This document shows, piece by piece, positions 43,389 through 60,336 of a DNA stretch of 64,000 nt. The position numbers and the translations under genes were made by a program. The notes under the pieces are model-generated. The model did no database searches. It saw only the letters and a list, made by a program, of their open reading frames with translations, and was not told the origin of the DNA. The stretch comes from Ancylobacter tetraedralis (lineage in GTDB: Bacteria > Pseudomonadota > Alphaproteobacteria > Rhizobiales > Xanthobacteraceae). The stretch is from contig NZ_JACICD010000004.1 in NCBI RefSeq assembly GCF_014195655.1, forward strand, positions 1 through 64,000, in the 5' to 3' direction. The stretch's first letter is position 1, and every line of letters starts with the position of its first letter.

Positions 43389-44244
43389 TTAAGCCAAGTC
43401 AGCTCGCTCCTCGAACTCGACGGGGCTGAGATGGCCCAATGTCGAGTGCTTGCGCCGGCGATTGTAGAAGCGCTCGACGTAGTCGAGCACGTCCGCCCTC
43501 GCGTCCTCTCTCGTTCGGTAGGCCTTGCGGGCTGTCCGCTCGGTTTTCAGCGACGAGAAGAAGCTCTTCATGGCCGCATTGTCCCAGATGTTGCCGGCCG
43601 GCTCTTGGAACAGGTGATGCCGTGGTCGGCCATCCGGCGCTGGATCGGCTCGCTGGCATATTGGCTGCCCTGGCCGGAATGGTGCATCAGGCTATCCGGC
43701 TTGCCGCGTCGCCAGATCGCCATGAGAAGAGCATCGGTGACGAGCTGGGCCTCTCTGCCTTCATCGCCCAGCCGACGACACGGCGGGAGAACAGGTCGAC
43801 GACGGCGGCCACGTCGAGCCAGCCCTCCGTGGTCCAGATATAGGTGAAGTCCGCCACCCATTTCTGGTTCGGAGCCGAGGCCTCGAAGGCGCGGTCGAGC
43901 AGATGGTCCGACGCGGCGGCCCGCACGCCGACATCCTTCGGCAGCCCACGACGGCGCGGCCGGGCGCGCAACCCATCCTCCCGCATGAACCGTTGGACCC
44001 GATGCAGCCGGCAGGAGAGCCCTTCCGCCAGTACATCGTGCCAGATGCGTCGTGCGCCATAGGTCCGATCGCTGCTCTTGAAGCTGCCGTTGATCGTCGT
44101 CGCGAGCCCGTCATCGTGCCGGCTATGCGCGCTGGGACTGCGATTGAGCCAGGCATGAAAGCCCGACCGCGAGACATCCAGAGCGTTGCATAGCCATGCC
44201 ACCGGCCAGATATTCGGGTGCTTCGCGATGAAGGCGAACCTCAT
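43389..44244 (-). pseudogene. IS3-family transposase OrfB, frameshifted
   Basis: Three frame segments together cover almost a full OrfB. MRFAFIAKHPNIWPVAWLC to RVVGWAM runs from 44244 to about 43760 and includes the first catalytic Asp region WVADFTYIWTTEGW. The second, with AQLVTDALLMAIWRRG and HHSGQGSQYASEP, runs to about 43600. The last, MKSFFSSLKTERTARKAYR to LSPVEFEERADLA, ends at 43389 with the catalytic Glu region. Two frameshifts separate them, and the second catalytic Asp (normally HSDQG) is Gly. OrfA is missing. The element is inactive and is abutted on its upstream side by the IS30 remnant. Confidence 0.88.
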
Positions 44245-44277
44245 GTCGCTTCCCTCGCGAAGAAGGCCTCGGTGGGT

Positions 44278-45122
44278 TCAACCGGTCAGGGCAACGGCTC
44301 CGTTGAGGGTATCAGCTGGGGTCCTGTAGCCAAGCGTCTTTCGGGGCCGAGTGTTCAGGCTGAGAGCAACATCATCCAGGTGGTCCTGGGTCAGGCTTGA
44401 CAGGTCCATGCCGCGCGGGGAGTACTGGCGCAGGAGGCCGTTGGTGTTCTCGTTGCTGCCCCGTTGCCAAGGACTTTGCGGATCGCAGGAGTGGACTGCG
44501 ACATCCGTCGCCAGGGTGAACCTGCGGTGATAGGCCCGCTCGGTTCCACGGTCCCAGGTCAGGGAGGCCATCAGGCCCTCTGACAGCCGGCGGACTCGAC
44601 GCACGAGGGCATCGACGACGCTTTCGCTGTCCTTGCCGGCGACACGCACGAGCATGACGAACCGGGACCGGCGCTCGACGAGCGTGGCGATGTGGCTGTT
44701 GCGGGCGCCGCTCAGAAGATCGCCCTCCCAGTGGCCGGGCACGGCGCGATCCTCGATCTCGGCCGGGCGCTCCCGCATCGAGACGGCGCCGATGATCTGG
44801 CCCCGCGTCTGGCCAGCGGCGGTGGCCATCTTGCCGCGTCGCATGACGCGGCGGCTGCGCAGACGTGCCAGCAGTTCCTTCTTCAGCACGCCGCGGGCCT
44901 GGACGAAGAGGCTTCGATAGATGGTCTCGTGAGACAGCTGCATCTCCCTCCTGCCGGGATGAGTAGCCTTCAGCCAGCCAGACTCCGGCTGCTGCGCCGG
45001 TTCTCGAGCCTGTCGGCCACCAGAGCACAAAGCTCGGGATCGCTCGCCAGCCGGCAGGGTTTGGGCCGCAAAGCCTGCATCGAGGCCTGCTCCTCGGCCA
45101 GTGAGGGCCGATACCGGCGCGC
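44278..45122 (-). pseudogene. IS30-family transposase, 5' truncated and frameshifted
   Basis: The C-terminal 230 or so residues are in one frame (from about 44985 to 44278): WLKATHPGRREMQLSHETIYR, then VPGHWEGDLLSG, SLTWDRGTERAYHRRF and NENTNGLLRQYSPRG, so the three DDE residues are present. The preceding segment RRYRPSLAEEQ to ENRRSSRSLAG lies in another frame (45122 to about 44970), implying a one-base indel. The N-terminal helix-turn-helix is missing: at 45122-45124 the sequence switches directly to an IS5-type segment. The product would not be functional as written. Confidence 0.85.
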
Positions 45123-46741: not shown

Positions 46742-47755
46742 CTAGTCCAAAAACTCATGATCAATTGTTTGCTGCCGGGTGTCGTTCGCAGGATATTTAT
46801 AATACCTTGTTAGTGCTTCAGGTATAAAAAGAAGTTTAGGCCGAAAATACATGATGCGCCTTATGAAATTCCAGTCGCCCGGTTCATCCAGTCTATAGGC
46901 GTATACGTTTGCGGGCAGTTTCGAAAAGAAGCGATGATAGAAAATCATACCCAGGCCGACTTGCCCGAGTTCGAGTTTTCCGTTGCCCCATTCCAACCAG
47001 GAGGTGTCCATCTGCTGATACCAGAACTTGTGCCAGACAAAATCCGCCTCATTCTGCTGAGCTGCCGCCAGAACGATCTCGATACGACGCTGATCGAATG
47101 TATCGTCTTCGTCGAGGTGGGTCACAAATTGCCCCTTCACTCGCGAGCGCCCCAGATTGCCGGCGTGGCTACCGGCGACGAGCCAGCGCTCCTTGCCTGG
47201 CGGGGGGTAAGGCATTCGACGGTCGAGGTTATAGAACTCGATCCGGGGATCCCCCACTTTCGCGAGCCGCTCGGCGGTATCATCGGTGCAATGGTCGCCT
47301 GAGACGATAATCTGAAGGTTGCGATAGCTCTGTTCGCGCAAGGATGTGATGCAGCGATCAATCAGAAGGCTCGAGCGATTATAAGTGGTTACGCAGACTG
47401 AGACGAGCGGCTCGGGGTCGGTAAAAGCCCTCCGATACTCCTCGGTTCGCCTCGCCTGATGGAACTCGTCGCGAAGCGACGCTAGGCCTTCCAGTTCCGC
47501 CAGCGCATAGTCCACGCGTCGGGCCTCTCGCTGAAGCGCAACGCGTAACTCATAGATCTCGGTATGAAGCGCTGCAACACGCTCAGATGTTGCGTACTGT
47601 GCTTCAATACGGCGTACCATCGCGTCAAGATGCGATAACTGGTCCGCTAAATAAGCAGTGCGATCAGGCTCTTCGCCCTCCTGACCTGCCAGGCGATCTC
47701 GATTTTCCGAATTTTCGGAATTATTGTCAGGATCGATGTCTATACTCACTGGCAT
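46742..47755 (-). CDS. GT2-family glycosyltransferase with N-terminal coiled coil
   Basis: A 337-residue protein. Residues about 30-105 form a charged heptad-like region (LSHLDAMVRRIEAQYATSER and onward), probably a coiled coil for oligomerisation or for contact with partner enzymes. The GT-A domain starts at PLVSVCVTTYNRSSLLIDRC and has HLDEDDTFDQRRIE, the metal-binding Asp motif. The length and the lack of membrane helices indicate a cytoplasmic sugar transferase. It lies 30 bases upstream of the GT61 gene in the same direction and is probably co-transcribed. The substrate is unknown. Confidence 0.85.
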   Translation of the reverse strand: MPVSIDIDPDNNSENSENRDRLAGQEGEEPDRTAYLADQLSHLDAMVRRIEAQYATSERVAALHTEIYELRVALQREARRVDYALAELEGLASLRDEFHQARRTEEYRRAFTDPEPLVSVCVTTYNRSSLLIDRCITSLREQSYRNLQIIVSGDHCTDDTAERLAKVGDPRIEFYNLDRRMPYPPPGKERWLVAGSHAGNLGRSRVKGQFVTHLDEDDTFDQRRIEIVLAAAQQNEADFVWHKFWYQQMDTSWLEWGNGKLELGQVGLGMIFYHRFFSKLPANVYAYRLDEPGDWNFIRRIMYFRPKLLFIPEALTRYYKYPANDTRQQTIDHEFLD

Positions 47756-48072
47756 TGCTCACTTAGTTTTACTTGCGAGTCCTGCTCGCGCTCTCCTTGG
47801 CACTGGGACCATACAGAAGCCGGTGACCCGCGTCGAGCAATCAGGAAATTCGTCCAACAGCGGACCTCGGTACGCGCCCAGGTGCGCGGCGCCGATTGGC
47901 TCAGATTTGCTCCTCCCGGCCGCCCACGCTGCCGGGAGGAGGACTGTGATCTGCGCCGATAGATCGTGCCAGCCTCGCCGAGGAAGACGCCTCCGATCAA
48001 ACTCGCCCCTCGCCATTGGGTCGAACCTTGGCAGGATCGATGCTGGGCGAGAGGTGATCTACCTCGACCGGA
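47756..48072. other. Gene-free spacer between glycan genes
   Basis: These 317 bases contain no supported gene. They probably carry the promoter or leader of the GT2 gene; no clear operator or terminator was seen. Confidence 0.45.
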
Positions 48073-51000
48073 CTACGATCTGGCGTCAAGTTCTCCCCTT
48101 GAATGGTGGCGGGTCGCTGCCCGCAAAGCGTCCAGGAAACCCGCCTTGGCACTTTGCTCCGAGAAGCGCTCACGCACCACTTTGAGGCCGTTGTCGGACA
48201 GTCGCCGCAACAGATCATCGTCGTTGAACAACTGCAGGACATGATCCGCCAGCTGTGACGTCGTCGTGCCGATCATGGCTTCGGCGCCGTGCAGAAGTTC
48301 GATCCCTTCATTGCCGACCGGCGTCGTAACGACGGGAACCCCCGCCTCGAGGCTGGCAACCACCTTGCCCTTTACGCCTGCGCCGTACCGCAGTGGGCTC
48401 AGCGACAGCCGTGCTCGCGCATAGTAAAAACTAATATCCGGAACATGCCCGGGCACTTCCACAAGGGGGCCTGCCAGCTGCATCACTTCTGGCGGAGGAT
48501 TGCTGCCAACGATCATGACCTTGGCGTCAGGGATCTGCTGCCACACCAGCGGCATTATCTCCCCGACCAGCCAAAGCGCAGCGTCGACATTGGGGGCGTG
48601 ACTGAACCCACCGACGAACAGGATGCCGCGCCGGCTGCCCAAATCGGCCACTGAAGCTTTCGTATCCTGTTTATAGAAATAGGGCTGAAGGACCTTGACG
48701 ACGGCATGAGGTACGAGTTTCGCGATGACATCCGCTTCGGCCAGGCTCGGCGTTGTCACGCAGTCCACCTGCTGGAACAGGCGTATCTCGGTCTCGCGGA
48801 GCGACTCGGCCATCTCCAGCGCCTCCGGATGGCGGAAAAGCTCATAGCGTCGCATCTCCCGCAGGAAATGCAGGTCATGCGTGTAATACACAATAGGTGC
48901 CCGACTTAGCCGCCGGATCGGCTCGATGTATTTGGGGGCGACATTCGGACGAGCAACCCAAACCCAATCCAGCCATAGTCCTGCCTGTTCGAGCCATCCT
49001 TCGAAGTCGGGGAGATCGTAGAGCACCTCCACGCCCAGCTGTTGCAGATGTCCGACATAGGGCTCAATCGCGACTCGCACGTCCGGTATGAATATGACCT
49101 TGAAGCCTTCGTTGAGCAGAAGGTTTATGTATTGGAAGGTCGTCAGTGCTCCCGCATGCTTATCGTATTGGGGAACAAAATCGTCGATTATAAGTATCGT
49201 TCCAGACCGGGGCTGACGCTCTCTCGCTCGAAAGATGCTCCTTTGATCCACGGCGTGCAGTGCCAGGCGCTCGGACCAGCGGGCACAAAACTTCTCGTGA
49301 TTTATCACCGACTGGCGGTTGCGGACTTCCGGCCCATAGGACTCGCTGCCGAGGTGATAGAGCGCGCTCGCCGGTTGATAGACAATCTTGTAGCCATGGT
49401 CCGCAAAGACAAAGGCAAGATCAAATTCTTCGTAGAAGGCTGGTGCAAAATCATCGCGAAGCGGTCCCAGTTCGTCAAACAGATCCTTGCGAACCAAGAA
49501 GCAGGCGCCGGTCACGACATCGACTTCACGGACATAGTTGTATTTGGCGTCGAACGGATCGTCGCCTCGGCCGTAAGGATAACCCCAGCCGTTCTGAAAT
49601 ATGACCCCGCCGGCTTCCTGGATCGTCCCATCGGCATTGAGAAGCTTGGCCCCAACCATGCCGACTTTCTCGTCGCGACGCGCAACGTCGACCAAATTGT
49701 TCAGCCAGCCTTCCCGAACCAGCGTATCGTTGTTCAGGAAAACGATATACTTTCCTCTGGCATGCTTGGCTGCCGAATTGCAGTTCCGAATGAAGCCGAG
49801 ATTCTCGGGCTGGCTAAGCACGGTTATCCCCTGTGCCTCCGCGAGATGCGGATCTGTGGGGTCGGTTGGGCAGTCGTCTGCGACGATGATCTCATAACTG
49901 ACAATATTGATAGTATCCTGCATTATCGAGTGCAGGCAACGCAACGTATCAACGTGATGTTTATAGACAGGAATGATGATCGTTACTTCGGGGTCGAGGC
50001 ATTTCTCGAATTGCAAGGCATGAGGCAGGAGAGGTGGCGTTGACGCCGCCCACGGCGTGGCGGGCCGGCCATCCAGGTAGCCAAAGCGAAGGTAATGTTC
50101 GTGTGGGTCAAGGTCGCTCGCCGCGGCATCTTCATAGGCGCGCCTATACCAATGCGGATCGAAGCCTTCCGCGAGGTATGCCCTGCGCCCGGCCACGGCC
50201 AAATCCGGGGCGTCGTGGGGCGCCTCTTCCCTGTCTGGCGGACGGGTAACTCGCCCCTCTTTGGCTCCGTACTCCAAATAGTGAACCAGCGGATTGATGC
50301 CTGAGGCCCTCACATCCGGATATTGGTCCAAATAATATTGTGTTTTAAAGTTCGGATGGGGGTCTCTGCCCTCCTTCGCACCCCAGCGGAGGTAATGAAG
50401 CAGGGGGGGCACGTTGGATGCACGGACGTCGGGATATTGATCGAGGTACCATGCCACATCGAAGAGCGAGGGCGGCTCAAGCAGTCGGGACGCAAGCGCC
50501 TTGGAGTCTCGCCTGGCTGCGGGCATGCGTGCGCTGGCAGCAATTCCGGACTTGAGACGGCCTAGTATCACCTGAAGCCAGTTGCGACGCCTCGTTTCTG
50601 CCGCTAAAGGGCGAATTTCGGCTATCAGCGTCAGGAGGTCGAGCACCCGCATCTTATCTACACGAGCCTGCTCATTGAGCTCCTCGTGCAACCCTCTTAC
50701 CTGCGTCTTGAGTTCGTCGTTCAGCTCCCGTGCCTGCTTCCAAAGGGAGCCACGAGCGTGGTCCGCTGCCTTTTGGAGGTATTGGATTTCGGCCTTGTTG
50801 CGCTCAATCTCCCTCTCGAGGCGTTCTATCCCATCGCTCTGGATCGCGTCATTCACCGAACGATAATCGATGTAAACACTGTGCCCCCTTGGCTCAATAG
50901 GAGCGTTGGACGCCACCGCAATCAGATAAGGTGCTCGCGATAATCCTTGTGACGCTTCCAGGTAATCCATATTTCGGCGCTCGAAAGTCAGTGCGCCGGA

Positions 51001-51603
51001 GGTGTCTCCATCGACAGCAAAAATTGCCGATCCAATCATCGGCCGTTGCTGAAGAAATTGATGACAGGAAAAGCGACTGGCTATCAGTTTGGTAAATTCA
51101 TCCTTGGTAAGTTCGTTTACATGGTGCGGATTGACCCACGCTCCCGCGGAGTAGACATCGCGATCGGGAGAGCTGACGATAAAGATACCGTCCGCACTCA
51201 ATATTCTCTGGACTTCCGAGATAAATATCTCATGTTCGAGCAGATGCTCGATGGTCTCGAACGAGACGACGACGTCGACCTCGCCGTCACCAATCGGCAG
51301 CGCGCGCGCATCCCCCAACGCGAACCTTAGATTAGGGCGGACAAAGGATCTGCTAGCATGCAGCACGGCGTCGGGAGAAATTTCGATGCCGACGACGCTT
51401 TCTGCAACCTGTGCGAGAAGTGCGCTGCCGTATCCTTCTCCAGAAGCGACATCCACTACTTTTTTACCGCGACAATACTCCCGCGCCAAGCAATATCGGT
51501 GTACATGTTCGAACTCGATCTGTCCCGAGGTAGCAGAAGTCATCCGCTCGCCGGTAAAATCAAGTGGCACATCACTCTGCTCGTACCGAAAAATCTCTCC
51601 CAC
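48073..51603 (-). CDS. Giant fusion: methyltransferase, coiled coil, triple repeat, GT2 and GT4 domains
   Basis: A 1176-residue multidomain enzyme. Residues about 15-200 are a class I SAM methyltransferase (VVDVASGEGYGSALLAQ, then SFETIEHLLEHE). Residues 255-320 form a coiled coil. Residues 381-516 carry three copies of a 35-45-residue repeat, the first two nearly identical (WYLDQYPDVRASNVPPLLHY and YYLDQYPDVRASGINPLVHY, each followed by a GAKEGR motif). A GT2 domain spans about 538-790 (VTIIIPVYKHHVDTLRCLHS, FLNNDTLVREGWL). A GT4-type domain covers about 805-1150 (GILFVGGFSHAPNVDAALWL, RLSLSPLRYGAGVKGK). It probably adds two sugars and a terminal methyl group to a surface glycan, acting on the cytoplasmic side. 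It is lower in GC than the backbone. Confidence 0.9.
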   Translation of the reverse strand: MGEIFRYEQSDVPLDFTGERMTSATSGQIEFEHVHRYCLAREYCRGKKVVDVASGEGYGSALLAQVAESVVGIEISPDAVLHASRSFVRPNLRFALGDARALPIGDGEVDVVVSFETIEHLLEHEIFISEVQRILSADGIFIVSSPDRDVYSAGAWVNPHHVNELTKDEFTKLIASRFSCHQFLQQRPMIGSAIFAVDGDTSGALTFERRNMDYLEASQGLSRAPYLIAVASNAPIEPRGHSVYIDYRSVNDAIQSDGIERLEREIERNKAEIQYLQKAADHARGSLWKQARELNDELKTQVRGLHEELNEQARVDKMRVLDLLTLIAEIRPLAAETRRRNWLQVILGRLKSGIAASARMPAARRDSKALASRLLEPPSLFDVAWYLDQYPDVRASNVPPLLHYLRWGAKEGRDPHPNFKTQYYLDQYPDVRASGINPLVHYLEYGAKEGRVTRPPDREEAPHDAPDLAVAGRRAYLAEGFDPHWYRRAYEDAAASDLDPHEHYLRFGYLDGRPATPWAASTPPLLPHALQFEKCLDPEVTIIIPVYKHHVDTLRCLHSIMQDTINIVSYEIIVADDCPTDPTDPHLAEAQGITVLSQPENLGFIRNCNSAAKHARGKYIVFLNNDTLVREGWLNNLVDVARRDEKVGMVGAKLLNADGTIQEAGGVIFQNGWGYPYGRGDDPFDAKYNYVREVDVVTGACFLVRKDLFDELGPLRDDFAPAFYEEFDLAFVFADHGYKIVYQPASALYHLGSESYGPEVRNRQSVINHEKFCARWSERLALHAVDQRSIFRARERQPRSGTILIIDDFVPQYDKHAGALTTFQYINLLLNEGFKVIFIPDVRVAIEPYVGHLQQLGVEVLYDLPDFEGWLEQAGLWLDWVWVARPNVAPKYIEPIRRLSRAPIVYYTHDLHFLREMRRYELFRHPEALEMAESLRETEIRLFQQVDCVTTPSLAEADVIAKLVPHAVVKVLQPYFYKQDTKASVADLGSRRGILFVGGFSHAPNVDAALWLVGEIMPLVWQQIPDAKVMIVGSNPPPEVMQLAGPLVEVPGHVPDISFYYARARLSLSPLRYGAGVKGKVVASLEAGVPVVTTPVGNEGIELLHGAEAMIGTTTSQLADHVLQLFNDDDLLRRLSDNGLKVVRERFSEQSAKAGFLDALRAATRHHSRGELDARS
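50060..50463 (-). repeat. Three-unit internal protein repeat in the giant glycosyltransferase
   Basis: This stretch encodes residues 381-516 of the fusion protein. Each unit has the pattern FD-x-WYL-x-QYPDVR, about 12 residues, HYL-x-x-G-x-x-EGR. Units one and two are close to identical and the third (FDPHWYRRAYEDAAAS) is diverged. This linker-like repeat is known between domains of large bacterial glycosyltransferases; its function is not established. Confidence 0.8.
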
Positions 51604-52571
51604 GCGCCAAGCCCCCCCCGACTTAAGCTAACCACTATCTAAGCTGAGCCGCATCGCAAAAAATATCGACACGGCCGCAGCCGGTAAGCCCTTCCACCCT
51701 CACTAGCTCAGGCCATTTCCGAGCGCAACACACGGCCCCGCGCGCGGAGATAGCTAGCGGCCCTTGGCGGGCTGTCGCAGGGCCCGTACGCCTGTTATCA
51801 GCCTCGTTCTTGACGGCTATTGCCTGATCGCTTCTGCGTCGCCAATTCCTTTGAGGCCGTGTCCGCGTGCTAGTTCAGGCGTCACGCAGCTCCCTGCCTA
51901 CGGGCCTACGGGTCACGCGAGGCGGCACATTCGCGAGTTCGCGGCGGTCTGCATGTCTCGGTGCGTGTACCGCCGGTTCGGGCCGTGCCACCGGTTTGCG
52001 CTTCGCGGCTCATCTCCGGGATGTCCGCCGGTAAGCGTGAGCACGATTGGACGGCCCCCGGTATCCACCGGATTCCGATATCCATCCGTGGGGTGACAGT
52101 CGTTTTGAGCCGCCGTGCATCTTTCCAGGCACACTCGGCTTGCCTTTTGTGCCGCCTGTCGACCCGCTGGCGATGCCATCCCGTTCCGCGCGTGGGTCCG
52201 ATCGGGAGCGGCGAAGAACTCGGCCGCTTTTGTGGGGGCGGGGGGGCTCATCCGTCGCGCGCTGTGGTTCCCGCCTCAGCCGGCGGATCGGGGGGGGGCG
52301 GTCGCCGTCGCGGGCCGCAGCCTCGGGGATGTTTTAAAGCGCGGGGCTACCGTTCGCCGCGAGAGCTGATCGCGCCGTTGAGGCTGGCAGGAAATTCTCG
52401 GCATTTAGGAGGAAACAACGGGGGCTTGACAACTCTGCTGTGCCCGTAAAACGTGTCTGCCTTGGATCTTTCTAGCCCCGAGAGAAGAGGGCGGGCCTTT
52501 TCGGATGCTTTAGGTGTCGCGCGTGTCGTGATGTCATGTTTGGATCGTTGTACTCATGCAGTAGTTAGTTG
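51604..52571. other. Gene-free divergent region with G-rich tracts
   Basis: These 968 bases separate the divergent giant glycosyltransferase and WbqC-like genes. Open frames here lack recognisable protein content. Guanine runs occur near 52237-52248 and 52289-52298 on the plus strand. A TTGACA hexamer at 52426 lies about 140 bases upstream of the WbqC-like start; the nearest -10-like sequence (TAAAAC at 52447) is weakly spaced. Confidence 0.5.
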
Positions 52572-53237
52572 ATGACCAAAATCGCAATTATGCAGCCCTA
52601 TTTTCTCCCCTACGCGGGTTATTTTCGGCTATTGAACGGCGTTGATTGCTTCGTGGTGTTGGATACCGTTCAGTACTCAAATAGGGGCTGGATCAACCGA
52701 AATCAATTGATCTCCGTTGACGGTGCTGTGCGTTGGATAAACGCTCCTTTCTCTCAGCCGTCCCGCGGTACGCCTATCAGCGAAGTGCAGCTGTTGCCGG
52801 ACGCCGAAGTTGTGATGCAGGAGCGCATGCGGCGTTTTTCCGCCTGCACCCATCCAACACCCGAACTGCATTCCCTTGTCGAAGCGATGGCTTTGCCTCA
52901 GCTGTCGGCTGTCGATTATCTTGTCGGATTGCTCGATATTTCCGCAAAAATCCTGAAGTTGAATACGCCAGTTATTCGGGCGTCGTCGTTGGATATCGAC
53001 CCGACGCTTAGGGCGAGTCAGAGGATTCTAGGTATTTGTAAGCATCTGAATGCAGAAATCTATATAAATGCTCCGGGAGGAGCTGAGCTCTACGATTGGG
53101 AGGAGTTCTCCCGGCACGGAATTGACCTTCGAATTCTGCCTGCCTATGCGGGTTCGAATCTGAGTGTTCTTCAGTGCATTTATGACATTGGTGGCGCGCG
53201 AACGCGTGCCGAAATCGATTGCAATATGGGTGCGTAG
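52572..53237 (+). CDS. WbqC-like family protein
   Basis: A 221-residue protein of the WbqC-like family, whose members are found in lipopolysaccharide and other glycan gene clusters; the reaction is not established. The family pattern is plain: IAIMQPYFLPYAGYFRLLNG, FVVLDTVQYSNRGWINRNQL, and the C-terminal YINAPGGAELYDWEEFSRHG. An ATG at 52572 is preferred over the TTG one codon earlier. It opens the plus-strand cluster with aminotransferase, carrier protein, methyltransferase, oxidoreductase and ligase genes. Base composition is near 50 percent GC by eye, unlike the backbone. Confidence 0.85.
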   Translation: MTKIAIMQPYFLPYAGYFRLLNGVDCFVVLDTVQYSNRGWINRNQLISVDGAVRWINAPFSQPSRGTPISEVQLLPDAEVVMQERMRRFSACTHPTPELHSLVEAMALPQLSAVDYLVGLLDISAKILKLNTPVIRASSLDIDPTLRASQRILGICKHLNAEIYINAPGGAELYDWEEFSRHGIDLRILPAYAGSNLSVLQCIYDIGGARTRAEIDCNMGA

Positions 53238-53548
53238 GCGATAGCGACATGTCACTCGACCCCTTGCGGAGGAGGGGGAGGGGGGGGGGGCTAGTGGTGT
53301 TTTTTGTAGCGCGGCGCACGTTTTGTTTCCCAAGGATGCTCATTGTATCTTTGGGAGTGGGGCGGACCGGCAAACTGTGAGTTTTTGGGCGGCCTATGTC
53401 ATCGACCGTAACTGTGATGCCAACCGTGAGGCGAAGATTGTCGTCCCTTCGATAGTCGCCGCGCTCGGGGGTGGATATCGCACGGACGCGTGGCATAGCC
53501 AACACTAACCTCCCCTAAAACGAACAGCCCCCACCCCCTTGTGATGTT
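53238..53548. other. Spacer with a run of eleven G
   Basis: No supported gene lies in these 311 bases. An uninterrupted run of 11 G at 53280-53290 follows GGAGGAGGGGGA. Such a tract could form a quadruplex, vary in length by slippage, or be a sequencing or assembly artefact. It lies about 260 bases upstream of the aminotransferase start. Confidence 0.6.
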
Positions 53549-54751
53549 ATGTGGGTCATTGCTAGGTTAGGGTGCGGCATGCAGTATGCGGTTGGTGATC
53601 GCGCTTCCAAGGCGCAGCCCTTGGGGCGAGAGGGGGCTAAGCCAAGAATCTGGGAGGCCCAGAGGGGCATCCGCTTCCCCTTTGTCAGGCCGCGATTGCC
53701 GGAGCTTTCCGAGGTCGACAAGTTCTTTGAAGTCTCAAGGCAAGCCGGATTTTATTCGAATTTCGGACCGGTATCGATAGCCTTCGAAGAGGATCTCGAA
53801 GCGGCGTTTTTCCCGCGCACAGGAGCTGTCGCCTGCGCCAACTGCACGGTTGGTATTTCTGCGGCGCTGATCGCCGCGCGCGTGCGTGGCCCGGTACTGG
53901 TATCGGCATTCACATTTCCCGCGACGCTCGCGGCCATTCGGGCTGCCGGCCTTGAGCCGATCATCTGCGATGTCGATGCCAAGACCGGCGTGCTGGACTA
54001 TGATGCGGCCTCCACCACGTTGGGCCGGATGAAATGCGGCGCCATCGTCGCCGGCCGTCCCTACGGGATTTGGTCCGACATCGGGCACCTGGGTGATCTG
54101 GCCCGACAATGGAATGTCCCGCTGATCCTCGATAATGCGGCTGGCCTCGGCGTTGGGCGGCATGTCGTGGAGCGATACTCCGTCGAGGAGGCGTTTGAGG
54201 TCTTCTCGCTTCATGCGACCAAGCCTTTCAGCGTCGGCGAAGGTGGGGTCGTTGTCGGCCCTCGGGCATTCGAGAACGACATTCGGTCAGCGCTCAATTT
54301 CGGCCTGTGGTCTGCCGGCACGGTCGAGATAGGAAGCGGCTTCAACGGCAAGATGGATGAGTTGACGGCCTCCATGGCGCGGGCCGTGTTCGCTGGACTG
54401 GCGGTCCGTGTGGACGAGCGTCAGTCATCTGCGCGGCATTTCAATCGCCTGGCGCAGGCCGCGGGGCTTCAGACATTTTGCGCGGTCGGTGAGGAGGAGT
54501 CCTCACCTTGGCAGTGCTTTCCCGTCACGCTGCCGTCCCACCTCAGCGTTGAAGAGGTGGTGGCAAAGTGCCATGCGGCGGGCTTGCAGATCCGGCGCTA
54601 TTATTATCCGCTGGTTGGCGAGGTGTGCTCCAACGCGCCCGTGGCGGGCGTGCTGTCCGACCGCACAGTCTGTCTTCCGGTCTATGACGGCGTTGAAGCC
54701 GGTGTGGTCGACGAAGTCTGGGGCATATTTTGCGACAGTCTCGCGCATTGA
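53549..54751 (+). CDS. DegT/DnrJ/EryC1-type aminotransferase
   Basis: A PLP enzyme of up to 400 residues in the family that transfers an amino group to keto-sugars. The cofactor Lys is in VFSLHATKPFSVGEGGVVV and the Asp region is PLILDNAAGLGVGR. The segment VLVSAFTFPATLAAIRAAGLEPI is typical, although the usual GTSAL motif is replaced by ANCTVGISAAL. The start is uncertain: ATG 53549 or ATG 53579; the first 35-40 residues are not family sequence, so a later start is also possible. It should supply an amino sugar for the glycan, or an amine for the carrier-protein pathway downstream. Confidence 0.85.
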   Translation: MWVIARLGCGMQYAVGDRASKAQPLGREGAKPRIWEAQRGIRFPFVRPRLPELSEVDKFFEVSRQAGFYSNFGPVSIAFEEDLEAAFFPRTGAVACANCTVGISAALIAARVRGPVLVSAFTFPATLAAIRAAGLEPIICDVDAKTGVLDYDAASTTLGRMKCGAIVAGRPYGIWSDIGHLGDLARQWNVPLILDNAAGLGVGRHVVERYSVEEAFEVFSLHATKPFSVGEGGVVVGPRAFENDIRSALNFGLWSAGTVEIGSGFNGKMDELTASMARAVFAGLAVRVDERQSSARHFNRLAQAAGLQTFCAVGEEESSPWQCFPVTLPSHLSVEEVVAKCHAAGLQIRRYYYPLVGEVCSNAPVAGVLSDRTVCLPVYDGVEAGVVDEVWGIFCDSLAH

Positions 54752-54872
54752 GTGCAGTCGGCACCCATGGGGTTGACGCGCCTGCATCGGATGGGCAGGC
54801 GCTCGACGTGGCAGGAATCCAGATCTTGGCCGGCCAAGCGGCGATCGACGCGCCTATTGGAGGCTTGGCTTG

Positions 54873-55163
54873 ATGAATTTCGATGCAGGAGTAGTTGAAG
54901 CGATGGACGTGATACCGCAATTGCGAAAATTCCTTGAGACGGAGTCGGCGGCCGCCTCCAGCGCCTCCACCGTTCTCCCGGATGATGATTTGCTTGAGCT
55001 GGGATTGATCGACTCCCTCACTCTCCTGAAGCTTGTGTCATTTCTCGAGCAATCGTTCGGAATTTCCGTATTCGACGAAGATTTGATAAAAGAGAATTTT
55101 AGTACAATGAATAATATACAAATTTTCATAACGAATAAAATTGAAAATAAAGGCCAGTCTTGA
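54873..55163 (+). CDS. Stand-alone acyl carrier protein
   Basis: A 96-residue carrier protein. The phosphopantetheine-attachment Ser48 is in LLELGLIDSLTLLKLV, and the four-helix pattern ends GISVFDEDLIKENFSTMNNI. The start ATG 54873 has GGAGG about 9 bases upstream. It differs from the fatty-acid AcpP and is dedicated to this cluster. The AMP-forming ligase at 57464 is the likely enzyme that loads it, and the methyltransferase, FAD enzyme or acetyltransferase may act on the bound group (inference). The 3' end is very AT-rich. Confidence 0.88.
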   Translation: MNFDAGVVEAMDVIPQLRKFLETESAAASSASTVLPDDDLLELGLIDSLTLLKLVSFLEQSFGISVFDEDLIKENFSTMNNIQIFITNKIENKGQS

Positions 55164-55167
55164 GGCT

Positions 55168-56220
55168 ATGGGAGCTCGCCCTGTGGGAAATGACAGCGCC
55201 TCGTCGGCAATCGATCCGTTGATCGCGATCAAGTTGGCGAATTTGAGTCATGGAATTGTCCATACGCAGCTCCTATATGCCGCTATCAAGCTGAATATTC
55301 CGGATCTTCTTGCTGATGCGCCAAGGACGGTCTCCGAGCTCGCGGTTTCGACGGGTACTGCCGAGCCGAGGCTGTATCGCGTGCTGAGAGCTCTCTCTGC
55401 GTTGGGGCTGGTGACGGAGATTGAGCCGCGCCTTTTCGAGCTTCGTCCTCTTGGTGCGGCCTTGCGCGCGCGCGAGTCTGCCTCGCAGCGCGATTTCGCC
55501 CTTATGATGGGCAGCCCTTGGCATGCCGGCGCCTGGGCTCAGATACTCAGCAGCGTCGATGTTCCGACATCCGCCTTCGAAAAAGTCTTCTCTGAGGACG
55601 TGTTCAGTTATCTTGAGAAATTTCCGGACGAGCGCGATGTCTTCGACCGTGCCATGGCCTTCACGTCGAGTGCCCATGCCGAAGCGATAGCCTTGGCGAT
55701 CCGTGTCGACACCAAAGCGACGCTGGTCGATGTGGCCGGTGGAACGGGACTGCTCTTGCGAGAGCTTCTGGAAAGAAATCCAGAACTGGAAGGTGTTTTG
55801 TTCGAGCGGCCGGAGGTTGTGGAGAAAGCAACATCCTATCTTTCGTCAGCGGGGATGGGGGAGCGGTGTCGCGTCGTTTCTGGCGACTTCTTCAAGTCTG
55901 TACCCAGCGGCGGAGATATATATATGTTGAAATATATCATCCACGATTGGAGCGATGAAGACGCGGGCATCATACTTCGGAATTGCCGGACGGCGATGAA
56001 GGATGATGGAAAGTTGATACTTCTTGAAGTTGTGCAGCCGGACAGGAACCCGTCTTTCTCGGAGGTCTGGTCGGACATTGAGATGATGGTCGTATTACCC
56101 GGCGGGCGTGAGCGCACGCGGGCTGAATTTGGCGACCTGCTGGCGACCTCCGGCTTCGAGCTTGTGGATGTGCGGCGGACCCGGTCGGAATTGAGCGTCA
56201 TCGAAGCGTTGCCTCGATGA
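55168..56220 (+). CDS. SAM-dependent O-methyltransferase (acetylserotonin/caffeate-type family)
   Basis: A 350-residue small-molecule methyltransferase. The N-terminal dimerisation winged helix includes LLYAAIKLNIPDLLADAPR and EPRLYRVLRALSALGLV. The SAM site is LVDVAGGTGLLLRELLERNP. The catalytic His region is YIIHDWSDEDAGIILRNCR, and LILLEVVQPDRN follows. The start is ATG 55168, four bases after the carrier-protein stop; a TTG at 55141 inside that gene is less likely. This family methylates hydroxyl groups of aromatic or polyketide compounds, which hints that the cluster makes an aromatic or enol-containing group. Confidence 0.9.
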   Translation: MGARPVGNDSASSAIDPLIAIKLANLSHGIVHTQLLYAAIKLNIPDLLADAPRTVSELAVSTGTAEPRLYRVLRALSALGLVTEIEPRLFELRPLGAALRARESASQRDFALMMGSPWHAGAWAQILSSVDVPTSAFEKVFSEDVFSYLEKFPDERDVFDRAMAFTSSAHAEAIALAIRVDTKATLVDVAGGTGLLLRELLERNPELEGVLFERPEVVEKATSYLSSAGMGERCRVVSGDFFKSVPSGGDIYMLKYIIHDWSDEDAGIILRNCRTAMKDDGKLILLEVVQPDRNPSFSEVWSDIEMMVVLPGGRERTRAEFGDLLATSGFELVDVRRTRSELSVIEALPR

Positions 56221-56300
56221 CAGGCCGCCACCCATCGACAAGCCAATGTGCGGCGTCGCTCAGGAGCGGACGGCCGGCGCGCTAAAGTGGGATCGGGTTG

Positions 56301-57467
56301 GTGCTGCGGGAATATGTGGATGTCGTTATCGTCGGCGCCGGTGCTGGTGGTATATCAGCAGCAATATCGGCTGCGCGTGCCAACGCATCGGTTGCCCTTC
56401 TGGACACGCGTCCGGAGGTGGGCGGCATTGTCACGCACGCCTTGATCCATACGATAGCCGGCCTGTACGACGCGTTCGGCGGATGGATGAACGAGGGGCT
56501 ACCCGTCGAACTTGTCGAGAGGGTGCTGCTGCGGGACGCCGATACCAAGAAGCGGAAAATCGGCAAGGCCTGGGTTCTAAGCGCATCGCCCTGGACCTAT
56601 CGCCAAGTCGTTGAGGCATGGGTAGCTGAGGAGCCGGGTATCCGTGCCTTTCTCGGTGTCAATGATCTGAAGGTAACGACGGACGGGGGGGCAATCTCTT
56701 CCGTGACCTTTCGTCAGGGTGGATCGTCGCGCGTTCTGCAAACGCGCGCGCTGATCGATAGCAGTGGTCACGCGAACGCCGTCAGGTCCATAGATCCGGA
56801 CCTTCTCTACGAGGATCCGATCCCGGCGCTCGAGGGGCTGATATTCCGCGTCCGTGGGATCCGGTCTGCTGACTTGGCTTTCCCTCGTGGTTTGGCGCTC
56901 CGGAGGGCAATCGCTCAGGCCGTTGTCGAGGGACAACTGCCGCAAGAATGCTCCGGTGCGTGGATCGACATGGGGGTGCGGGAGGATGAAGCCTATATCA
57001 AGCTCTCCGTCGCCCCGGTGCGGAACGAACTCGCGCCTCGCGCAACCCCGGACCAGATAGCCGAAGCCATGCACCGTTTTCTGGCAAAGCGCTTCGTTGC
57101 CCCGAGGCCGGCTGCAATTCAGGCGGGCGAGATTACGCGGCGCAGTGGGGCGCGGGCAAAGGGCGAGTATCAATTGACGGGTGGTGATGTGCGGGGGCTC
57201 GCGCGGTTTCCAGATGCGGCCTGCAAATGCGCCTGGCCGATCGAGCATTGGACGTCCGAGAGGGGGTTGGAGTTGGAATATCTCGAGGACGACGGATATT
57301 ATGAGATTCCTCAGCGGGCACTGCGAGTCGCCGGGGTAAAGAATCTTGCGGTCGCGGGCATGTGCCTTTCATCGGATCGTGTAGCGCAGGCTTCCGCGCG
57401 GGTTTCCGGCTGTTGCTGGGCGATGGGTGAAGCCGCTGGGAGCATGGCGGTCGGGTGGCTCAAATGA
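56301..57467 (+). CDS. FAD-dependent oxidoreductase
   Basis: A 388-residue flavoprotein. The dinucleotide-binding motif VDVVIVGAGAGGISAAISAA is at the N-terminus, followed by DTRPEVGGIVTH. The second FAD region is near the C-terminus: VKNLAVAGMCLSSDRVAQAS, then GCCWAMGEAAGSMA. The fold matches the FAD_oxidored/geranylgeranyl-reductase-like group rather than acyl-CoA dehydrogenases. The start is uncertain (GTG 56301 or TTG 56298; both follow GGGAT-like sequence). Its stop overlaps the ligase start. It may oxidise or reduce the carrier-bound group (inference). Confidence 0.82.
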   Translation: MLREYVDVVIVGAGAGGISAAISAARANASVALLDTRPEVGGIVTHALIHTIAGLYDAFGGWMNEGLPVELVERVLLRDADTKKRKIGKAWVLSASPWTYRQVVEAWVAEEPGIRAFLGVNDLKVTTDGGAISSVTFRQGGSSRVLQTRALIDSSGHANAVRSIDPDLLYEDPIPALEGLIFRVRGIRSADLAFPRGLALRRAIAQAVVEGQLPQECSGAWIDMGVREDEAYIKLSVAPVRNELAPRATPDQIAEAMHRFLAKRFVAPRPAAIQAGEITRRSGARAKGEYQLTGGDVRGLARFPDAACKCAWPIEHWTSERGLELEYLEDDGYYEIPQRALRVAGVKNLAVAGMCLSSDRVAQASARVSGCCWAMGEAAGSMAVGWLK

Positions 57468-58942
57468 CTGGCGACGTTGATCTGTTCGAGGTGTTTTCGG
57501 CAACCGTGGCTCGGCAGCCGAACAGGACAGCCTGTCTTGAGTTCGGAAAAGCGACGCCGTGCACCTATCTGATGTTGCTGGGCAAAATTGAAGAAGCGGC
57601 AGCGTCGCTTCGGGAGGCCGGCATGCAGCCCGGCGCTTGCGTGGGGCTGCACTGCCCCAGCGGCCTGTCCTATATCGTATGGGCTTATGCCATATGGCGG
57701 TGCGGCGGCACCATCGTGCCGATTGCAACCGAGTTGGCCAAGGATGAAAAGCTGGAGATCTGCACGACGATCCGGTTGAACGGCGTCATAACGCTGACAA
57801 GGGATCTGCCGATCTTTGATGGCCTGTTAAGGGCTTGCGACGCTCAATTTTCTGGAGAGGTCGCCTATATCCCGATTGACGGAGAAGCGCCGCGCCCCGC
57901 TGGCTTCTCCGCATTGCGTCCTGCTTTCATCCGCTTCACCTCTGGAACAACTGCCAGTTCCAAGGGTGTTGTTCTGTCTCATTCCACAGTTTTTCAGCGC
58001 ATTCTTGCCGCGAATGACGTCCTCAACATCGGGCCGGACGACAGGGTGCTGTGGCTCCTCTCGATGTCTTACCATTTTACGGTATCGATTGTTGCCTATC
58101 TATCGTTCGGGGCTACCATTATCCTGTGCAAGGACCATTTTGGCTCGACAATGGTGGAAGCCGCATCGGAGGGGGGCGCCACCTTCATATATGGCTCGCC
58201 GCAGCATTACCGAGCCATGGCGAGCGACGCGAGTGGTCGGCTGTTCGGGCAGGCCCGTTTGGCCATCTCGACCGCAACCGCGTTGAGGAATGATGTTGCC
58301 CAGGCCTTTTTCCGCCGCTTCGGGCTCCCCTTAAGTCAGGCCTACGGGATTATTGAAATAGGTCTGCCATGCATCAATCTGGCTGGCGAGGAGGCCAAGC
58401 CGGGTTCGGTGGGCAGGCCTTTGCCAGCCTTCGACATTCGATTGACGGAGATCCTGCCGGGAGGGCCCAAGGCGATCTCGGTCCGAGGATCTGGCATGCT
58501 GGATGCCTATTATATCCCGTGGCGCCCGCAAGCCGAGATCATGCCGGATGGCTGGTTCTATACGGGGGATTTGGGTGAGTTCGACGCGGACGGCTTTCTG
58601 AGCATTGTCGGCCGAGCGAAGGAAATGATCAGCGTTGCCGGAATGAAGCTTTTTCCTCAGGAGGTGGAAGCCGTGCTGGAGACGCATTCGCGGGTCCAGG
58701 AGGCCTATGTCTACGCCGAGCCACACGACCGGCTGGGCGAGATTCCCTGCGCCCTGGTGCTGGCCGTTCCGGGGCAGGCCCATGCGGAAGAGGCGGAGCT
58801 TCGTTCTTATTGCGCGAAGCATCTGACCTCCTACAAGGTGCCGGAGAAGATAAGATACGTCGCCGAGTTGCCGAAAACAGCCAGTGGCAAACTAAAGCGA
58901 AACTCGGCGCTGCCTGTTGGTGCCACAGGGCCCGCTGCGTAA
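57464..58942 (+). CDS. AMP-forming acyl/aryl ligase (ANL superfamily)
   Basis: A 492-residue adenylate-forming enzyme that activates a carboxylic acid with ATP and passes it to CoA or a carrier protein. Motif A3 is RFTSGTTASSKGVVLSH (about 157-173), A5 is AYGIIEIG, A7 is YTGDLGEFDADG, A8 is FLSIVGRAKEMIS, and the A10 Lys is in KTASGKLKRNS. It lacks a fused carrier domain, so the separate carrier protein at 54873 is the natural partner. The start ATG 57464 overlaps the FAD gene stop by 4 bases; an in-frame ATG at 57455 is also possible. Substrate identity cannot be read from the sequence. It converges on the acetyltransferase gene with a gap of 13 bases. Confidence 0.9.
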   Translation: MTGDVDLFEVFSATVARQPNRTACLEFGKATPCTYLMLLGKIEEAAASLREAGMQPGACVGLHCPSGLSYIVWAYAIWRCGGTIVPIATELAKDEKLEICTTIRLNGVITLTRDLPIFDGLLRACDAQFSGEVAYIPIDGEAPRPAGFSALRPAFIRFTSGTTASSKGVVLSHSTVFQRILAANDVLNIGPDDRVLWLLSMSYHFTVSIVAYLSFGATIILCKDHFGSTMVEAASEGGATFIYGSPQHYRAMASDASGRLFGQARLAISTATALRNDVAQAFFRRFGLPLSQAYGIIEIGLPCINLAGEEAKPGSVGRPLPAFDIRLTEILPGGPKAISVRGSGMLDAYYIPWRPQAEIMPDGWFYTGDLGEFDADGFLSIVGRAKEMISVAGMKLFPQEVEAVLETHSRVQEAYVYAEPHDRLGEIPCALVLAVPGQAHAEEAELRSYCAKHLTSYKVPEKIRYVAELPKTASGKLKRNSALPVGATGPAA

Positions 58943-58955
58943 GAAAACGCAGTCT

Positions 58956-59666
58956 TTAATCCCGACTTGGAATCTGGGCTGTCTTAGTATCTTCCGACCA
59001 CGTTAAGAGGCGGCCGAGTTCATCGCTAGATTTCGCAAGCCGCTTGGTTGGTGCCTCAATATAAACTCCCCGCTCGGAAGCGTTGTTGGTGATTAGTGAG
59101 CGCGCGCCCAAAATGCATCTTTGTCCAATCGTTACTCCATCTGTAATTGTGGCATTGGCGCCAATGACACACCAGTCTCCAACCTTCACGTCGCCTAGAA
59201 TTTTAGCGCCGGCGGAAATGAAGCAATGGTCGCCGATCACCGAGTGGTGACCAACAAAACATGTTGGCCCGATAACGCAGTTATTTCCGATCTTGGCATA
59301 TGGTTGAATCACGGCGCCTTCACATATGCACGTGTTCTCGCCAATTTCGACGCCCGGCCAGACGGTCGCTTTTGAACTCAAGTAGGAGACCAGCTGGTAT
59401 CCCTTCGACTTCGCTTCCCTATATTTTGCTTCGCGAAATTCGTTTATTCCGCGATAGCCCAGCAGCACTGACACTGCATATTCCGTTGGTGGGAACCTGT
59501 TCTCTAGGTCTTCGAAGGCGACAACAGGTAGGTCGCAGAAGTGCGTCTGCCTTATAAAGGCTCGGTCAACAGCAAACCCTGCTACCTGATGGGGTGAATC
59601 GTTTGTGAGATACGCGTAATTCAGAGCTGAAATATTGGAAACCCCGAATATAATAACGTTGGCCAT
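58956..59666 (-). CDS. Hexapeptide-repeat sugar acyltransferase (NeuD/PglD-like)
   Basis: A 236-residue left-handed beta-helix acyltransferase. The N-terminal Rossmann-like domain (MANVIIFGVSNISALNYAYL) binds the nucleotide sugar in NeuD/PglD relatives. From about residue 95 the hexapeptide repeats run through VWPGVEIGENTCICEG, GPTCFVGHHSVIGDH (with the catalytic His) and DWCVIGANATITDGVTIG. It would add an acyl group to an amino or hydroxyl group of a sugar. With the DegT aminotransferase nearby it suggests an N-acylated amino sugar. It converges on the ligase gene. Confidence 0.85.
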   Translation of the reverse strand: MANVIIFGVSNISALNYAYLTNDSPHQVAGFAVDRAFIRQTHFCDLPVVAFEDLENRFPPTEYAVSVLLGYRGINEFREAKYREAKSKGYQLVSYLSSKATVWPGVEIGENTCICEGAVIQPYAKIGNNCVIGPTCFVGHHSVIGDHCFISAGAKILGDVKVGDWCVIGANATITDGVTIGQRCILGARSLITNNASERGVYIEAPTKRLAKSSDELGRLLTWSEDTKTAQIPSRD

Positions 59667-60336
59667 ATTTTTTCCCTCTTATTATTTGTCCGGCGCTTGA
59701 AATCGCTCGTTGATTCGGTTTGTGAGCCTTTGCGTGGATAATCCACAATCGTCTGACCAGACAAGACGCTGAAAACTCGCTTGCGAGCGGCGGCTGCGCA
59801 GCTGACTCGACCTCTTGCTCGTGAATGGTCGGTATCCAAAGTGATCCTGGCCGATCATCAGCGCAATGCACGTGGTCGGAGCCCCTTTCCTGAACCGCCG
59901 GGAGCCGGAGCCGTCCGCCTGCTTTACATCGGTGGGGTTGGTTGTGCGGTCGGAGATCTTCAGGGAGGTGGGCGCTTGGGGCCGATGGCCCCGTACGGCC
60001 GATCCTGAATGCAGCATCCGAGCCAAGCCGGCACTTTTCCGGCTCCCCTTGCAAGCGTCAGAGCCTGTTTGGAGAATGGGTGGTTGGGATTTCCTGTGGG
60101 TGGCTGCGTAATTCACACTTTGGATGTGAATACGACAAAAGCACAATTGGATGGCCAGCGACGCCCGCAAGGCCGGGCGCTTTCCCTCTGATCTGGCGGA
60201 CGAGGAGCGTCGCTTCCGAAATCCTTGCCTCCGGTACACCGGACGGCGCGCTCTGCGCGGCGGCAACGTGGGCGGGGCCTGTTCGTCGTCTCGCCTGTCA
60301 TATCAAAGTCGAGACGTCACGGATCGCAGGATGGCC
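59667..60336. other. Mostly gene-free region with a possible glycosyltransferase relic
   Basis: In these 670 bases no intact gene is supported. The plus-strand frame 59866-60111 reads GAPFLNRREPEPSACFTSVG and then LVVRSEIFREVGAWGRW, which faintly resembles the acceptor side of GT2 enzymes (the usual LVRREVFERVGGFDE type). It is too short and isolated to call; treat it as a possible pseudogene fragment. Confidence 0.35.

Follow-up and report, generated by a model that had tools for sequence, protein, structure and literature searches.

What does a free acyl carrier protein (ACP) do among amino-sugar genes? The question is raised by seven genes at positions 52572 to 59666 of a 64,000-nucleotide stretch of Ancylobacter tetraedralis DNA (contig NZ_JACICD010000004.1; the whole stretch is called the window here), in which an ACP gene and a gene for an adenosine monophosphate (AMP)-forming ligase lie between those of a DegT-type sugar aminotransferase and a NeuD-like acyltransferase. 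The genes for the ACP, an O-methyltransferase (OMT), a flavin adenine dinucleotide (FAD)-dependent oxidoreductase and the ligase probably constitute an exchangeable acyl ('R-group') cassette within a cell-surface glycan island, providing a methylated acyl group on the ACP for an amino sugar. This reading is supported by intact genes, operon-like spacing, a glycan setting, a core shared with cassette-free sister species, and a unit of ACP, FAD enzyme and ligase that occurs again in another phylum. The element that looks new is the acyl-making route, in which a ligase, an FAD oxidoreductase and an aromatic-type OMT are combined.

Gene organization and proposed pathway

The seven genes, followed by two glycosyltransferase (GT) genes of the island identified by family scan, are:

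52572 to 53237, plus strand: WbqC-family protein, 221 amino acids (PF08889, E 2.5e-34)
53549 to 54751, plus strand: DegT/DnrJ/EryC1/StrS sugar aminotransferase, 400 amino acids, start uncertain (PF01041, E 4.3e-46)
54873 to 55163, plus strand: stand-alone ACP, 96 amino acids (PF00550, E 7.2e-6; 26.6 bits, cut-off 20.8)
55168 to 56220, plus strand: OMT, 350 amino acids (Methyltransf_2, PF00891, E 2.5e-39)
56298 to 57467, plus strand: FAD-dependent oxidoreductase, 389 amino acids (FAD_oxidored, PF12831, E 7.6e-52)
57464 to 58942, plus strand: AMP-forming ligase, 492 amino acids (AMP-binding, PF00501, E 2.8e-45, and PF13193)
58956 to 59666, minus strand: NeuD/PglD/VioB-type hexapeptide acyltransferase, 236 amino acids (NeuD_NnaD, TIGR03570, 166.3 bits, cut-off 160.8)
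46742 to 47755, minus strand: GT2 glycosyltransferase
48073 to 51603, minus strand: methyltransferase-GT2-GT4 protein, 1176 amino acids

Translation and family scans confirmed the seven genes where the original prediction had placed them, as well as the gap of exactly 4 bases between the ACP and OMT genes and the 4-base overlap of the FAD enzyme and ligase genes. The gap from OMT to FAD enzyme gene is 77 bases. Three features had gone unmentioned in that prediction: the WbqC and DegT genes are 311 bases apart, leaving WbqC loosely placed; 121 bases separate the DegT gene from the ACP gene on the same strand; and the NeuD-like gene, 13 bases past the ligase gene, is convergent and therefore lies outside the operon. 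None of the seven translations, from WbqC through the NeuD-like protein, contains an internal stop, and guanine-plus-cytosine (GC) content is lowest at codon position 2 in every one of the seven genes, a coding-frame pattern.

In the proposed pathway, the ligase would adenylate a free carboxylic acid and load it onto the ACP, the FAD oxidoreductase would alter the oxidation state of that acid, whether bound or free, and the OMT would methylate a hydroxyl. The acid may be an aromatic hydroxy acid, though this is a weak guess. The DegT protein, judged by its family, would provide an amino sugar in nucleotide-activated form, a 4-amino-4,6-dideoxyhexose being the likeliest, and the acyl group would pass to its amino group through the hexapeptide acyltransferase or, less likely, the WbqC-family protein. 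Glycosyltransferases of the island would place the sugar in lipopolysaccharide, exopolysaccharide or a glycoprotein. Transfer of an ACP-bound acyl group to an amino sugar had been part of the original prediction; with a glycan setting and a likely pair of amino-sugar and N-acyltransferase genes now behind it, the scheme appears plausible in outline.

A glycan island with a shared core

The amino-sugar and glycan context proposed earlier is borne out by the surroundings of the seven genes. Between 42.3 and 61 kb, limits of our own choosing, GC content is 0.583, compared with 0.679 before and 0.686 after. This low-GC island encodes GT61 and GT2 glycosyltransferases and the 1176-amino-acid methyltransferase-GT2-GT4 protein. 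Two integrase-core (rve) open reading frames (ORFs) on the minus strand (43687-45030), transposase remnants, lie by its left edge, and an Lrp-type regulator and alanine racemase are encoded to its right. On either side of the seven genes lie some 0.9-1.4 kb in which no gene is convincing.

A DNA search of the genus (30 genomes) with 52500-59700 as query gave matches in five genomes including the source, and all matches in the other four were confined to the DegT gene. The 20 kb around each sister DegT gene (loci L066-L069) was then compared by tblastn at E<=1e-3. DegT is related at 51-61%, and a NeuD-like match at 27-30% is present in three of the four loci. The GT2 protein of 46742-47755 has a 49-56% relative near DegT in L067, L068 and L069, and the methyltransferase part of the 1176-amino-acid protein has 34-44% relatives in all four. 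Within the same 20 kb no relative of the ACP, OMT, FAD enzyme, ligase or WbqC was found around any of the four DegT genes. Since the sister loci share DegT, GT2 and methyltransferase without the cassette, these comparisons identify the three as a shared core and the ACP-OMT-FAD enzyme-ligase genes as an add-on. The region 46742-54751 and L066-L069 can also be described as a variable surface-glycan locus (DegT, GT2, methyltransferase) common to several species of the genus.

As for the sugar, a dTDP-glucose 4,6-dehydratase scored above its family cut-off in 27 of the 30 genus genomes, among them the source, where it lies on a different contig. It is found about 15, 15 and 20 kb from DegT in G637, G642 and G634, respectively, and on a separate contig in G647. 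As DesI is the best NCBIfam match of the DegT protein (far under the DesI cut-off), a 4-amino-4,6-dideoxyhexose would be the likeliest product.

Related modules in Planctomycetota

Relatives of the cassette were found in another phylum. When the genome collection was scanned with the ligase as sole query, five loci were obtained, four of them weak (23-25%) and the fifth, L074, in a metagenome-assembled genome of the Planctomycetia. The order in L074 is PhyH dioxygenase, ACP, FAD enzyme (43%), ligase (48%) and a Condensation-domain protein whose match of 29.6 bits is slightly below the 30.6 cut-off, with a second ACP on the opposite strand. A profile search for the FAD enzyme in 294 Planctomycetota genomes gave 12 at E<=1e-30, including that of L074. 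The neighbourhoods of the 12 other FAD places were compared; they come from 11 genomes, of which one has two, and contig ends truncate some of them. Only that of G1267 (L092) had relatives of both ligase and ACP. In L092 the ACP is followed by a protein that has no Pfam match, then by the FAD enzyme and the ligase, and the unmatched protein resembles the condensation-like protein of L074 (30% over 174 amino acids, E 3e-10). Adjoining genes encode LolA, an MMPL-family exporter, a tryptophan-halogenase-like enzyme, a lipid A acyltransferase-like protein, Omp85, a second ACP and a second ligase.

A three-ligase profile run against 199 Planctomycetota genomes gave 21 at E<=1e-70, with six genomes above a gap from 1e-96 to 1e-80, four of which were new (L124-L127). 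In L127, an ACP and a condensation-like protein, which has no Pfam match and is 24-26% to its counterpart in L092, are followed by a PF12831 protein, a 151-amino-acid ORF and the ligase; after these come another ligase, a ketosynthase and an ACP-like ORF. Its FAD protein is distant from that of the window (33% over 75 amino acids) and is not among the matches of the 294-genome search. L125, a 6.8-kb contig, has a ketosynthase, LolA and MMPL and lacks FAD and ACP relatives; L126 has LolA, and its contig stops immediately upstream of the ligase, so that an ACP or FAD enzyme would not be visible; and L124 (18 kb) showed no relative of the ACP, FAD enzyme, ketosynthase, LolA or MMPL by tblastn.

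An ACP and a PF12831 enzyme thus stand upstream of the ligase, in the same order, in the window, L074, L092 and L127. The three Planctomycetota modules have a condensation-like protein where the window has the OMT, and they lack an OMT; in the examined stretches alongside them, tblastn found relatives of neither DegT nor the NeuD-like protein. The window cassette has no condensation-like protein among its genes. Our main inference is that the off-loading enzyme was exchanged, the hexapeptide enzyme having taken the place of the condensation-like protein in the window. The hexapeptide enzyme is the nearest transferase candidate; the cassette has neither a condensation-like nor another obvious off-loading enzyme.

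The ligases themselves point to a common group. In a tree of 43 rows (41 different), built by a quick method and with several long branches outside the clade, the ligases of the window, L074, L092 and L124-L127 form one side of a branch with a Shimodaira-Hasegawa-like approximate likelihood ratio test (SH-aLRT) value of 100. The alignment left out three of the 19 family loci, which gave no row (L056, L062, L064), and six of the 21 profile-search genomes, which had no locus. The motif G(I/L)IE(I/V/A)GLP is present in all seven clade members (YGIIEIGLP at residues 294-302 of the window ligase) and in none of the 36 other rows. Most of these have YGxTE or YGxSE, a few have another letter, and L003 does not match the pattern. 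Clade ligases therefore have Ile at a site that is Thr or Ser in most compared adenylate-forming enzymes.

Further features of the Planctomycetota loci concern their neighbours. L092 with L105, L127 (8345-17196), L125 and L126 are clusters that mix module genes with ketosynthase, LolA, MMPL exporter and halogenase-like genes, and not every such cluster carries all of the module genes (ACP, condensation-like protein, PF12831 enzyme, GIIExGLP ligase) and of these polyketide or aryl-polyene-type genes. The PhyH-type dioxygenase gene of L074 (2127-3083) is immediately upstream of its ACP gene, and a 28.5% PhyH relative lies next to the FAD gene in L093 (7149-7847), a locus without a ligase relative.

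Alternative explanations

The cassette may instead be an independent module for a small molecule or lipid that came to lie in the island, with DegT and the NeuD-like protein making an ordinary N-acetylated amino sugar. We regard this as rather unlikely, while noting that no DegT or NeuD relatives were found with the Planctomycetota modules, that those of L092 and L127 adjoin polyketide or aryl-polyene-type genes, that three of the four sister loci hold DegT and a NeuD-like match without the cassette, and that the NeuD-like gene of the window is convergent. Arguing for a connection with the amino sugar, the cassette lies downstream of DegT on the same strand, between DegT and the NeuD-like gene, and its four genes include no off-loading enzyme, so that a partner is needed, for which the hexapeptide enzyme is nearest. 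The island could also be a decaying foreign insertion in which the cassette has no present function, as its transposase remnants (43.7-45.0 kb), low GC and the gene-poor stretches of about 0.9-1.4 kb on both sides might suggest; seven open frames free of internal stops, coding-like GC at codon positions and intact core motifs make this very unlikely.

An acyl cassette that serves the amino sugar remains our preferred explanation, and several observations weigh against it. The NeuD-like gene sits on the opposite strand, DegT and ACP are 121 bases apart, and the NeuD-like protein has no PglD_N match, which the sister protein of L066 does show. The Planctomycetota modules have a condensation-like protein instead of DegT or NeuD relatives, and three of the seven clade ligases were not seen beside an ACP and FAD enzyme: L124 and L125 lack these, and the contig of L126 does not extend to where they could be seen. 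A more specific form of the acyl-cassette explanation seems improbable when taken as a whole: an aryl-polyene-like outer-membrane lipid starter module (ACP, FAD enzyme and GIIExGLP ligase) would have crossed phyla, traded its condensation-like protein for an aromatic-type OMT, and come to decorate a glycan amino sugar with an O-methylated aromatic or dehydrogenated acyl group. To our knowledge, such a substituent is not known from bacterial glycans. If the acyl-cassette explanation is true, the ligase-FAD-OMT route would be a case of a natural-product type module put to use in diversifying glycans. It would also offer a new set of enzymes for making acyl-ACP, one that can be traced in other genomes by its diagnostic ligase motif.

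Comparison with known systems

According to the original prediction, no described pathway resembles this gene set. That was too strong: the papers cited below describe ACP-linked N-acyl amino sugars in Pseudomonas, Vibrio cholerae O1 and Flavobacterium, and the general logic is therefore known. The viosamine island of Pseudomonas syringae pv. tabaci 6605 comprises vioA, vioM, vioT, vioS, vioB, vioR and acp; deletion of vioM removes the methyl group, and deletion of vioR removes the modified viosamine from the flagellin glycan (PMC3927599). As in the window, an aminotransferase, a VioB-type acyltransferase, a free ACP and a methyltransferase occur together in a glycan island, and the product, like that predicted for the window, is an N-acylated, O-methylated 4-amino-4,6-dideoxy sugar (PMC3927599). 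In the window, DegT stands beside a free ACP, and the acyltransferase scores above the TIGR03570 cut-off with VioB among its nearest structures. The systems differ in the origin of the acyl group, credited there to a 3-oxoacyl-ACP synthase III and a 3-oxoacyl-ACP reductase (PMC3927599), whereas the window has a ligase, an FAD oxidoreductase and a PF00891 methyltransferase. A viosamine island proper was rejected, as neither the synthase III nor the reductase is among the seven proteins. The 1176-amino-acid fusion protein of 48073-51603 is near in length to the 1173-amino-acid VioT.

In V. cholerae O1, the WbeL/RfbL ligase serves the tetronate on perosamine, and attachment of tetronate to coenzyme A (CoA) or the carrier RfbK is putative (PMC3441752, PMC12208996). 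These tetronate genes (rfbK for the ACP, rfbL/wbeL) belong to an O-antigen locus and provide the acid for the amino group of perosamine. They resemble the window, where an aminotransferase gene accompanies the pair, in having a free ACP and an AMP-forming ligase together in a glycan locus, a comparison with RfbL made by description only; the available text mentions no FAD oxidoreductase or PF00891 methyltransferase in the set (PMC12208996, PMC3441752). For the O-polysaccharide of Flavobacterium psychrophilum (wfpC-G), the R group is predicted to reach a PglD homolog from a dedicated ACP, and strains that share the locus differ in their R-group genes; the 3,5-dihydroxyhexanoyl group arises via ketoacyl-ACP synthases and a reductase, and a ligase is not among the genes described in the accessible part of that paper (PMC6519341). 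Enterobacterial flagellin islands have been reported to contain ACPs, CaiC ligases and DegT, which does not imply their co-occurrence in a single island (PMC4875605).

The loading of aryl-polyene starters offers another parallel, with an AMP-forming ligase, a free ACP and a methyltransferase in the cluster (PMC8253772, PMC3949708). The ligase ApeH loads 4-hydroxybenzoate onto an ACP without CoA (PMC8253772), and ArcT is active with 3-hydroxybenzoate (PMC3949708). Ketosynthases, LolA and an exporter belong to these clusters, and amino-sugar genes do not appear in them as described in the available sections (PMC8253772, PMC3949708); a family scan of ten proteins between 45.4 and 59.7 kb of the window found no ketosynthase, LolA or resistance-nodulation-division (RND)/MMPL exporter. 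A literature search of open-licence papers, in which empty searches weigh little, found no description of the exact enzyme set of the window or of the Planctomycetota ACP-FAD-ligase module, no function for WbqC and, among ten listed papers, no occurrence of 'methoxybenzoyl'. Surface glycans vary through exchangeable acyl genes, and the described cases compared here use ketosynthases or a simple hydroxy acid.

Rarity of the cassette genes

The add-on of ACP, OMT, FAD enzyme and ligase is rare in the genomes sampled. The samples were parts of each group and only 4-10 first-look candidates were scored per genome, and copies may therefore be missed. At E<=1e-50 the ligase was found in one of 385 genomes of the class, the source itself; at E<=1e-45 it matched 44 of 248 family genomes including the source, with the next best at 8.9e-57 and 33% identity. 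The FAD enzyme at E<=1e-30 was likewise restricted to the source among 398 genomes of the phylum, and at E<=0.001 it matched 178 of 249 order genomes (best apart from the source 1.2e-23, 32% identity).

Searches of the plasmid collection by tblastn found no near relative of the ligase (3362 records, the best place of each below 60%, matches listed at 29-32%), the FAD enzyme (seven records, 24-38%), DegT (426 records, matches listed at 29-31%) or the OMT (157 records, best 42.6%). The Microvirga neighbourhood of an OMT match contained no other cassette gene by tblastn, and viral contigs had no relative of the ligase or of the FAD enzyme. Two plasmid ligase neighbourhoods (H23 and H15) look like catabolic operons.

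Features of individual proteins

The ligase retains the core motifs TSGTT, YTGDLG and TASGK and is therefore probably active. Its closest solved relatives are oxalate-, feruloyl-, malonyl- and fatty-acyl-CoA ligases, a range that does not pin down the substrate. An amino-acid adenylation domain was rejected, as acyl-CoA and aryl-CoA ligases make up most of the best-scoring models and structures, with linear gramicidin synthase also listed; by our reading of the residues, the ligase also lacks the usual aspartate of such domains. The ACP has the weakest family match of the seven proteins, yet it scores above the gathering cut-off and has the serine of the DSL motif (S48, codon 55014-55016). Assignment to a named NCBIfam carrier was rejected, since its six matches, including the cispentacin ACP AmcB, were all far under cut-off.

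No relative of the WbqC-family protein was found among solved structures at E<=1, and a single-sequence structure prediction (mean predicted local distance difference test score, pLDDT, 37.8) was too poor for a fold search, as was that of the FAD enzyme from a two-row alignment (mean pLDDT 44.8). For the NeuD-like protein, the closest solved structures are UDP-N-acetylbacillosamine N-acetyltransferase, VioB and perosamine N-acetyltransferase, then LpxD and LpxA. LpxD uses acyl-ACP, and for LpxA this use is stated in the printed structure name. The ATKP motif of the DegT protein contains Lys225 (codon at 54221), presumably the pyridoxal phosphate lysine, and among solved relatives a putative pyridoxal phosphate-dependent aminotransferase (3ju7) outscores 2po3. 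The OMT is closest to bacterial small-molecule methyltransferases such as CalO6, MmcR and AlpH, which rank under an unnamed methyltransferase (6c5b); many structure relatives of this kind act on aromatic hydroxyls.

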